Of a stretch of DNA of 7,292 nucleotides, positions 4,880-7,292 are shown in pieces. The stretch's first letter is position 1. Every line of letters begins with the position of its first letter. Position numbers and translations under genes: made by a program. The notes under the pieces were generated by a model. It did not search any database. It saw nothing but the letters and a program-made list of their open reading frames with translations, and was not told the DNA's origin. The stretch comes from Acidobacteriota bacterium (GTDB lineage Bacteria > Acidobacteriota > Terriglobia > Terriglobales > Acidobacteriaceae): contig JAJYBT010000109.1 in the NCBI GenBank assembly GCA_021778875.1, forward strand, positions 1 to 7,292. The letters run 5' to 3'.

Positions 4880-5119
4880 ATGTCAGAACCGGTGATTGCC
4901 CAGAAGAGCCCGTACCCCGTCCAGGTCGAAGCGGAAAAGACGTACTACTGGTGCGCCTGCGGACGCAGCGCCAAGCAGCCGTTCTGCGACGGCAGCCATA
5001 AAGGAACCGAGTTCACGCCCGTGAAGTACGAGGCCAAAGAGTCCAAGACGGTCTATTTCTGCGGCTGCAAGCACAGCGCCAACAAGCCCCTCTGCGACGG
5101 CACCCACTCACGGCTGTAG
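4880..5119 (+). CDS. Tandem CDGSH-type iron-sulfur protein
   Basis: This 79-residue soluble protein has two complete CDGSH motifs. The first is C25-A-C27-x8-C36-D-G-S-H40 and the second C61-G-C63-x8-C72-D-G-T-H76. In this family each three-Cys, one-His set binds a redox-active [2Fe-2S] cluster, so one chain should carry two clusters. There is no membrane anchor or signal peptide. Its physiological partner is not known from the sequence; electron or cluster transfer is the usual proposal. AAGGAG at 4866-4871, 8 nt before the ATG, is the best ribosome binding site in the window. The gene follows the kinase by 96 bp, has a candidate -10 box of its own and is closed by a strong terminator, so it may be both the last gene of the operon and independently expressed. 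Confidence 0.93.
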   Translation: MSEPVIAQKSPYPVQVEAEKTYYWCACGRSAKQPFCDGSHKGTEFTPVKYEAKESKTVYFCGCKHSANKPLCDGTHSRL

Positions 5120-6007: not shown

Positions 6008-6083
6008 TGGAGCCGACGATCGGACTTGAACCGATGACCTGCTGATTACGAATCAGCTGCTCTACCAACTGAGCTACGTCGGC
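6008..6083 (-). tRNA. tRNA-Thr, anticodon CGU (DNA CGT)
   Basis: The 76-nt minus-strand sequence folds into a standard cloverleaf. The acceptor stem GCCGACG (6083-6077) pairs with CGTCGGC (6018-6012), followed by a T discriminator and an encoded CCA. The D arm has GCTC/GAGC stems around AGTTGGTA. The anticodon stem GCTGA/TCAGC encloses the loop TTCGTAA with CGT at 6050-6048. The variable region is AGGTC, and the T arm ATCGG/CCGAT carries TTCAAGT. The anticodon reads ACG threonine codons. It is a single tRNA with its own promoter and terminator. Confidence 0.97.
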
Positions 6084-6477: not shown

Positions 6478-6563
6478 AAAAACGGAAAGAGCCGCCCGGC
6501 AACAGGGCAGCTCCTTCCTCAGGGAGAATAGTTCCAACGGAGGCAAAACCATCAGAACTTTCT
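6478..6563 (-). ncRNA. Candidate small RNA of about 85 nt, family unknown
   Basis: A near-consensus promoter (6598-6570) predicts initiation near 6563, and a hairpin followed by TTTCCGTTTTT predicts an end near 6478. No annotatable protein gene fits between them. Within the transcript AGTTC and GAACT can close a 5-bp stem around a 20-nt loop. A purine-rich GAGGAAGGAG comes next and then the terminator stem. A 38-codon frame starting at ATG (MVLPPLELF...) runs through the terminator and has no ribosome binding site. I recognise no known RNA family: it is not tRNA, and I see no SRP, 6S or tmRNA signature. It is convergent with the small membrane protein gene. Confidence 0.5.
6489..6513 (-). terminator. 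Rho-independent terminator ending the candidate small RNA
   Basis: On the minus strand GAGC-T-GCCC (6513-6505) pairs with GGGC-G-GCTC (6497-6489) with one internal mismatch and a 7-nt loop, followed by TTTCCGTTTTT down to 6478. On the plus strand the same hairpin is followed by CTTCCTC, so it could weakly stop transcripts from the 6191-6439 gene as well. Confidence 0.68.
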
Positions 6564-6569
6564 GGCTGC

Positions 6570-6598
6570 ATAGTAGGTGCGGGGGAAGGGAGTGTCAA
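6570..6598 (-). promoter_or_regulatory. Strong sigma-70-type promoter for the candidate small RNA
   Basis: Minus-strand TTGACA (6598-6593) is a perfect -35 box. It is separated by exactly 17 bp from TACTAT (6575-6570), a 5-of-6 -10 box. The DNA upstream of the -35 box is AT-rich, like an UP element. This is the best promoter match I see in the window. A 7-bp inverted repeat brackets it. Confidence 0.72.
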
Positions 6599-6820: not shown

Positions 6821-7292
6821 TTACTTTTCCAGATTCAGCCGGATGAACTCCGTCTCATACACCGAAGAGACCGGTTTGCCGCGGGCGATGCGGTAAAGCG
6901 CCCGGCCCCCGCCCAGGAAGAATCCCAGCAGGATGGCTGCCAGCGAGCCAATGCCCACCAGCGTAGCAATGCCAAACAGCAGGCGGCCGGTCTTGGCAAC
7001 CTCTGACTCCACCGGCTGCGGAATGGCGGTGAGGTCGGCGTCAAAGTGGACCTGCTCCAGCAGCTTGTGGCTTTCGTCGGGGATGGCGTCGCCGCTGACC
7101 AGGGCGACGAGCGGGCCGCTGCGGCGCACCTCCAGCGAGGCCAGGTCGGAGTCCTGCAGGGCCTTGGGCCAGGCGGGCTGGGCCGCACTGCCAGCCTTCA
7201 GGTAGGCGCGGATGCGAGCCTCCTGCGCCATGGCAAGCTGCGGGGTGGGGTAGTTGAAGATGGTGAGCGTGGCGGGCCCCGAGCGCAGAGAG
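6821..7292 (-). CDS. Membrane-anchored protein, C-terminal part (gene runs off the right edge)
   Basis: The minus strand is open from the window edge to TAA at 6821, giving the last 156 residues. An ATG at 7231 lies in this frame, but the reading frame continues upstream of it without a stop (GPATLTIFNYPTPQLAMAQE), so the true start is probably outside. The visible part has a soluble region rich in acidic residues, one strong membrane helix (about 6982-6905, LLFGIATLVGIGSLAAILLG) and a short basic tail (RALYRIARGK). That layout suggests an N-terminal domain outside the membrane and a cytoplasmic tail. The ATLTIFNYPTPQ segment recalls conserved acidobacterial proteins of the DUF6599 type; this is from memory and unverified. 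Function is unknown. No clear terminator follows. Confidence 0.72.
   Translation of the reverse strand, partial: SLRSGPATLTIFNYPTPQLAMAQEARIRAYLKAGSAAQPAWPKALQDSDLASLEVRRSGPLVALVSGDAIPDESHKLLEQVHFDADLTAIPQPVESEVAKTGRLLFGIATLVGIGSLAAILLGFFLGGGRALYRIARGKPVSSVYETEFIRLNLEK

Follow-up and report, generated by a model that had tools for sequence, protein, structure and literature searches.

In Bacillus subtilis the small RNAs RoxS and FsrA pair with Shine–Dalgarno (SD) sequences through a C-rich segment, and the G-rich sponge RosA pairs with that same segment; the sections on these RNAs in PMC8216469 add that the G-rich site of RosA may also serve a small ORF as its SD. The same sections describe the Staphylococcus aureus RNA RsaI (RsaOG), whose G-rich regions bind C-rich sRNAs and which also has a C-rich region (PMC8216469). 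Acidobacteria are abundant in many soils, according to a passage of PMC3174227, and the phylum is credited in a passage of a 2022 review with no more than 4 distinct annotated sRNAs (PMC9029176). Acido-1 and Acido-Lenti-1 (RF01686, RF01687) are listed as candidate noncoding RNAs of Acidobacteria in the part of PMC2864571 that deals with them.

The pair of RNAs analysed here would best be read as like RoxS/RosA of Bacillus in function. As in the account of RoxS/FsrA and RosA in the sections cited, a C-rich linker faces SDs, the G-rich partner is a separate RNA and its site is possibly the SD of a small ORF. Unlike RoxS/RosA, the pair belongs to another phylum, has one linker site and a Lys/Ala-rich ORF of 15–30 codons that some clades have lost, and co-varies between species; nothing in Rfam scored above threshold to link the sRNA or the partner to the RoxS/RsaE family by descent. 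The partner is also like RsaI in being G-rich against a C-rich sRNA and differs in that RsaI, in those sections, has a C-rich region too; neither RsaE nor RsaI gave an Rfam match here. Neither Acido-1 nor Acido-Lenti-1 matched the window or the eight relatives scanned. If the reading holds, the pair is likely the counterpart, by convergence, of RoxS/RosA, and its partner RNA a natural example of switching between the roles of messenger and sponge. It would also give one bacterial family a near-universal sRNA with a partner RNA, in which natural compensatory changes make the pairing directly testable.

The initial annotation of the window, the whole stretch of 7,292 nucleotides analysed here, had proposed an undescribed small RNA gene on the minus strand, with a TTGACA, 17 bp, TACTAT promoter, a hairpin plus T-tract terminator and an internal AGTTC/GAACT stem. 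We found promoter and terminator as described (Table 1), and the AGTTC/GAACT stem as part of a longer 15-pair hairpin. The promoter (6598–6570) has 10 of 12 consensus letters. By consensus counts the window held 2 promoter-like sites against a shuffle mean of 1.5, and 7 terminator-like sites against 5.2 in shuffles; promoter and terminator alone are thus not above chance, and the case rests on fold, conservation and the other evidence. When 88 nt (6563–6476) were folded, two hairpins formed at −42.5 kcal/mol (z −5.98), and 0 of 200 shuffles equalled this. The layout from 5′ to 3′ is hairpin, pyrimidine linker CUAUUCUCCCU and terminator; in sequence, the gene has the features of an independent promoter and an intrinsic terminator. 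A purine stretch, GAGGAAGGAG, had been suggested as a ribosome-binding-site (RBS) mimic. The stretch is present, and that role was rejected, since it makes up mostly the variable 5′ arm of the terminator, is paired in the fold and is replaced in relatives. It is the linker, and not this stretch, that is conserved. What the small RNA appears to carry is thereby the opposite of an RBS mimic, an anti-SD linker, and the RBS-like element sits on the partner RNA outside the window. The CCC of the small RNA is predicted to be open (0.76 unpaired); the linker as a whole averages only 0.42, because UUCU closes the hairpin.

Table 1. Features of the small RNA locus in the window
Feature	Position	Strand	Remarks
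−35 element TTGACA	6593..6598	minus	exact in 84/86 loci whose promoter region was read by script
−10 element TACTAT, 17-nt spacer	6570..6575	minus	−10-type hexamer assigned in 84/86 loci; spacer 17 in 56/84
Predicted small RNA, ~86 nt	6478..6563	minus	start inferred from promoter spacing, end from T-run
5′ hairpin	6525..6563	minus	15 pairs, one bulged A; loop length differs among relatives
Linker CUAUUCUCCCU, putative anti-SD pairing segment	6521..6531	minus	complementary to partner AGGGAGAAUAG; linker UUCU also closes 5′ hairpin
Intrinsic terminator stem-loop	6484..6518	minus	14 pairs, then GTTTTT (6483–6478); purine stretch in 5′ arm
DUF6599 (PF20244) gene	6821..7292	minus	cut by window end, upstream on RNA strand; Pfam match on full copy in L001

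We then compared the locus across genomes. The copy in an Acidobacteria metagenome-assembled genome (locus L001, genome G001) was 99.8% identical to the window, with an identical RNA. Among 11 genomes chosen via the kinase gene of the window and then checked for the small RNA, 8 contained it at E < 1e-50, at 100% identity in G001 and 93–97% in the seven others, whose kinase DNA was only 67–77% identical. In the family of G001, 178 of 200 genomes had a BLAST match (E ≤ 1e-4), many of these covering the RNA without its promoter, with one match per genome and two in G178, a copy number that is a lower bound, since no more than four candidates were scored in each genome. Re-examination of 20 of the 22 family genomes without a match, using covariance model R2, revealed a real RNA in G018, G024 and G066 and a real one cut by a contig end in G047; in 15 it was absent or unconvincing, and in G055 degenerate. 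Locus L162 (G055) represents a natural case of loss, in which the DUF6599 gene and TTGACA were retained while the RNA hairpin and linker had drifted beyond recognition. Conservation (178/200 family genomes; TTGACA in 84/86 loci) settles that the gene is real, and by this comparison it is nearly certain that the window holds a widely conserved small RNA gene.

The covariance search in relatives that the initial annotation had suggested recovered distant members from the class. Model R1, run over 399 of its genomes, left a gap between strong members and weak matches, and model R2, built from alignment A4, matched 120 of the 399 at E ≤ 3e-4. All 17 genomes with a best R2 score below 60 bits were read, and 14 proved to be members (L110, L111, L130, L159, L174–L183) and 3 not; the weak model matches L129, L131 and L184 were rejected as terminator-like only, showing neither a TTGACA promoter nor a DUF6599 gene. 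Across 297 genomes of the phylum a core pattern matched in 22, of which 21 were sRNA-like and one spurious; the pattern match L153 was rejected, its promoter or terminator context not being seen. There was no real match in a plasmid collection. No known family had been recognised from the sequence in the first place, and Rfam bore this out: nothing at E up to 5 overlapped the RNA in the window, no Rfam 15 family reached its gathering score in the window or eight relatives, and the sole overlap in the relatives' loci was rnk_pseudo on L174 (28 bits, where the gathering score is 55; E 0.64). We recognised no description of the RNA in the open-licence PMC literature. It is apparently an uncatalogued, Acidobacterial small RNA.

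Alignments of increasing depth supported the predicted structure. Among the 32 close sequences of A2, the 5′ hairpin had 14 of its 15 pairs constant, which made these uninformative, and the terminator stem showed double changes in 6 of 13 pairs. When divergent members were included (A4, 54 sequences), 98.3% of cells paired versus 93.8% in shuffles, and 6 of the 15 hairpin pairs were double-changed. With distant clades (A5, 40 sequences) the values were 96.5% versus 86.4%, with double changes in 10 of the 15 hairpin pairs and pairing in 94.0% of hairpin cells. Because A4 and A5 had been aligned to the model, they are biased towards the structure; slid controls dropped to 37–57%. The hairpin that contains AGTTC/GAACT therefore co-varies, as the initial annotation had anticipated for a true RNA. 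In the linker, CUCC was found in 86/86 loci of the first set (78 UUCUCC, 8 GCCUCCC) and was lost or altered in L159, L162, L176 and L182. The loop motif GCCUCC was considered as the main anti-SD element and rejected, as it is not retained in divergent members.

To find a partner, we searched 12 genomes for the linker complement GGGAGAATA lying no more than 11 nt from an ATG, using the reversed pattern as control. There were 43 matches versus 17 for the control, and one gene recurred in 10 of the 12 genomes, a mini-gene with the same micro-ORF. The promoter of this mini-gene is TTGACA/TATAC; a leader containing hairpins comes next, followed by AGGGAGAATAG and an ORF, of which MATKKAAKKAPAKKAAKKATKK is an example. 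The partner RNA has its own near-consensus promoter and terminator, and AGGGAGAAUAG precedes its Lys/Ala-rich ORF of 15–30 codons. The partner was present with a changed site in G467, and none was found by this search in G205. BLAST of one partner copy against the 200 family genomes gave 141 at E ≤ 0.01, which is not a partner count because many matches were only other Lys/Ala-rich coding sequence; the partner was found in 30/30 of loci L257–L286, including G001's own copy (L276). A peptide pattern, ATGGCNNYNAARAARGCNGC, was dropped as too noisy because of other Lys/Ala-rich genes. The sRNA and partner genes lay far apart on a shared contig (3.69 and 4.39 Mb in G405; 4.79 and 1.40 Mb in G169), the closest distance seen being ~15 kb in G075. 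In many divergent genomes no partner was read (only 12 of 38 read as partners). In G090, G193 and G206 a partner was read and no sRNA found, for which incomplete assemblies may account. In clade B (L174, L175, L177–L181, L183, L111 and L130; 10 aligned) the hairpin loop CCGCGCAU was invariant and the linker UCUCCCCUCUGG nearly so; no partner was found there with the pattern AGGGGAGAATMG, whose 18 places were the sRNA gene itself (9) and sites without common context (9). The Rfam scan of partners gave no match above threshold, with only a chance-level CsrC overlap near the partner of L201. Longer Lys/Ala-rich genes (L291, L292, L293, L288) had codon repeats in common with the micro-ORF; the two may be related, or the micro-ORF may have been copied from these genes.

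Pairing between linker and site was retained in 69/69 genomes in which both RNAs were read, with Watson–Crick pairs at all 11 positions in 58, one G·U in 4 and two G·U in G078; intact-site counts are biased upward, because the main partner loci were the best BLAST matches of a site-containing query. In a variant clade (6 of the 69) both sides were rewritten, to linker CUGCCUCCCA and partner site UGGGAGCGCAG, which pair with one bulged C; G185 and G199 carried the same variant. In G467 the sRNA reads CUGUUCUCCCU (A to G) and the partner AGGGAGAACAG (U to C), a clean Watson–Crick double change. Site-only duplexes of own pairs were predicted at −18.3 (main), −20.1 (G467) and −18.4 kcal/mol (variant), versus −10.2 for variant sRNA with main site and −9.2 for main sRNA with variant site. 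When the 256 possible letter sets were ranked for each linker, the actual site came in the top 4 with the main linker, the top 4 with that of G467 and the top 10 with the variant one, and the variant letters came last of all with the main linker. Between main and G467, each linker tolerated the other's site, partly through G·U. A gap-free alignment of 32 genomes, anchored on the site, showed no variation at 7 of the 11 site positions, against a commonest-base share of 0.31–0.56 in the 20 bases upstream. The site was predicted to be 0.61 unpaired versus 0.36 for the preceding leader. Long duplex predictions with the whole leader overlapped the site in 32/32; they add little, because mononucleotide shuffles often matched them (z −0.5 to −2.8; 0 to 27 of 100 shuffles as strong). 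The complementarity to a separately encoded RNA is thus conserved with compensatory change at the level of the letters, and that RNA carries a site for the sRNA seed, as a sponge would. Comparison of genomes establishes the small RNA gene, its structure, its synteny and this co-varying complementarity, and suggests that the small RNA likely base-pairs with a co-evolving partner RNA.

How might the pair work? We think it probable that the locus encodes an independently transcribed, trans-acting anti-SD sRNA of ~86 nt, and that its partner is an mRNA and most likely a sponge. The segment 6563–6478 (minus strand) would be transcribed on its own, and its linker CUAUUCUCCCU, with the CCC predicted open, would pair with AGGGAGAAUAG of the trans-encoded second RNA. 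As that site is, in 58 of the 69 genomes, the SD region of the micro-ORF, pairing would cover the SD and block micro-ORF translation; the partner, acting as a sponge, would tie up the sRNA by titration and so relieve other mRNAs. Transcription, the duplex in the cell, the direction of control and other targets are what we infer in this scheme. Hfq gave a strong match (88–101 bits) in 17/20 genomes; matches in the three clade B genomes tested were weak (G290 25.9 and G243 25.6, below the 27-bit cut-off; G298 30.4, just over it).

The partner could instead be a plain mRNA target, the sRNA silencing the Lys/Ala-rich micro-ORF by covering its SD and doing nothing else. This agrees with the position of the site, which in 58/69 genomes is the SD region of the micro-ORF, a few nt before its ATG. 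However, 13 genomes without the micro-ORF kept leader and site (8 of the variant clade, 4 of the G042 clade, and G177), the site still co-varying, and the ORF-less partners printed at length had a promoter and a terminator hairpin too. In a tree built from DUF6599 at 51 loci, the 7 tips of the variant clade and the 4 of the G042 clade formed two separate monophyletic groups, each with support 1.0. Because ORF-bearing genomes lie between the two clades in this tree, which is without G177, the micro-ORF was lost at least twice, unless it was regained. A site that stays in place and co-varies even without the ORF suggests that the partner also, and perhaps mainly, works as an RNA, and makes a plain target an unlikely account, at roughly one chance in five. 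Whether the partner acts at least partly as a sponge we would call about even. In the 13 ORF-less partner RNAs, GGCAA occurred 28 times versus 8.3 in shuffles, although these letters may be leftover Lys/Ala codons and the 13 sequences are related; such repeats could meet the sRNA loop UUUGCC in a second contact, which we regard as a lead only. A fuller picture, to which we give slightly less than an even chance, is that of a co-evolving pair in Acidobacteriaceae formed by an anti-SD sRNA and an SD-mimic RNA, the latter serving as a messenger in the majority of species and purely as a sponge elsewhere, its micro-ORF shed at least twice, with a UUUGCC–GGCAA contact that may add to the pairing.

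It is less probable still, and in our view improbable, that the RNA is an anti-SD sRNA acting globally on numerous mRNAs, the partner being one conserved site among many. The presence of CUCC in every first-set locus would suit such a regulator, as would the 43 pattern matches, only 10 of them the partner, versus 17 in the control. A second site, GGGAGAATATGTACAYCA, lies before a 507-aa ORF in L200 (G380) and L202 (G316), at locus position ~1501–1521, and is a possible further target. Yet among the matches read no other target recurred in more than 2 of the 12 genomes, and ordinary SDs by themselves would make GGGAG more frequent before ATG.

The trans-acting anti-SD sRNA that we favour lies next to a conserved gene, the neighbour upstream on the same strand encoding a DUF6599 protein in 35/38 first-set loci (L001 and L012 being one genome). 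The exceptions were L061, with a distant DUF6599 fragment only, and L042 and L057, without the gene. It was also upstream in 33/35 divergent members (not in L092, at a contig start, nor in L112), in L110, L111 and L130, in 10/10 further members (L174–L183) and in L156, L159 and L162, versus 0/2 spurious matches in the divergent-member set and 0/1 in the further set. Because the models did not use that gene, this synteny independently confirms the members. Among 7999 candidates scored, 3479 homologues of the DUF6599 protein passed E 0.001, and no paper was found under the name DUF6599 in the open-licence PMC literature. The constant neighbour raises the reading that there is no regulator at all, only the conserved 3′ end and terminator of a DUF6599 transcription unit, which would fit a scan that saw no terminator-like site on the RNA strand between DUF6599 and the RNA. 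We consider this very improbable, since the RNA has its own exact −35 in 84/86 loci, a near-invariant 5′ hairpin and linker would be superfluous for a terminator, and the RNA co-varies with a distant RNA gene. Furthermore, L042 (G188) kept the RNA (1497–1583) and the partner (L266) with no DUF6599 gene within 1.5 kb upstream. Type I sRNAs proximal to 3′ untranslated regions, for example MicL, have an internal promoter and lie just downstream of a protein gene. The sRNA described here resembles them in directly following a protein gene that shares its strand and in having a promoter of its own; it differs in that this promoter comes after the stop codon, beyond the coding region.

A small protein gene starting at an ATG in the hairpin, whose frame is open through the terminator in the main clade, was rejected as the least credible reading of all, since the ATG occurs in only 61/86 loci, ORF lengths, frames and ends differ, the hairpin loop varies in length and compensatory changes track RNA pairing; no ORF is conserved. 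Downstream of the RNA, the window contains tRNA-Thr(CGT) at 6008–6083, and the same tRNA was found in 33/60 loci scanned; the other downstream genes varied between loci. Elsewhere in the window, positions 4880–5119 encode a small protein with a tandem pair of CDGSH iron–sulphur motifs.
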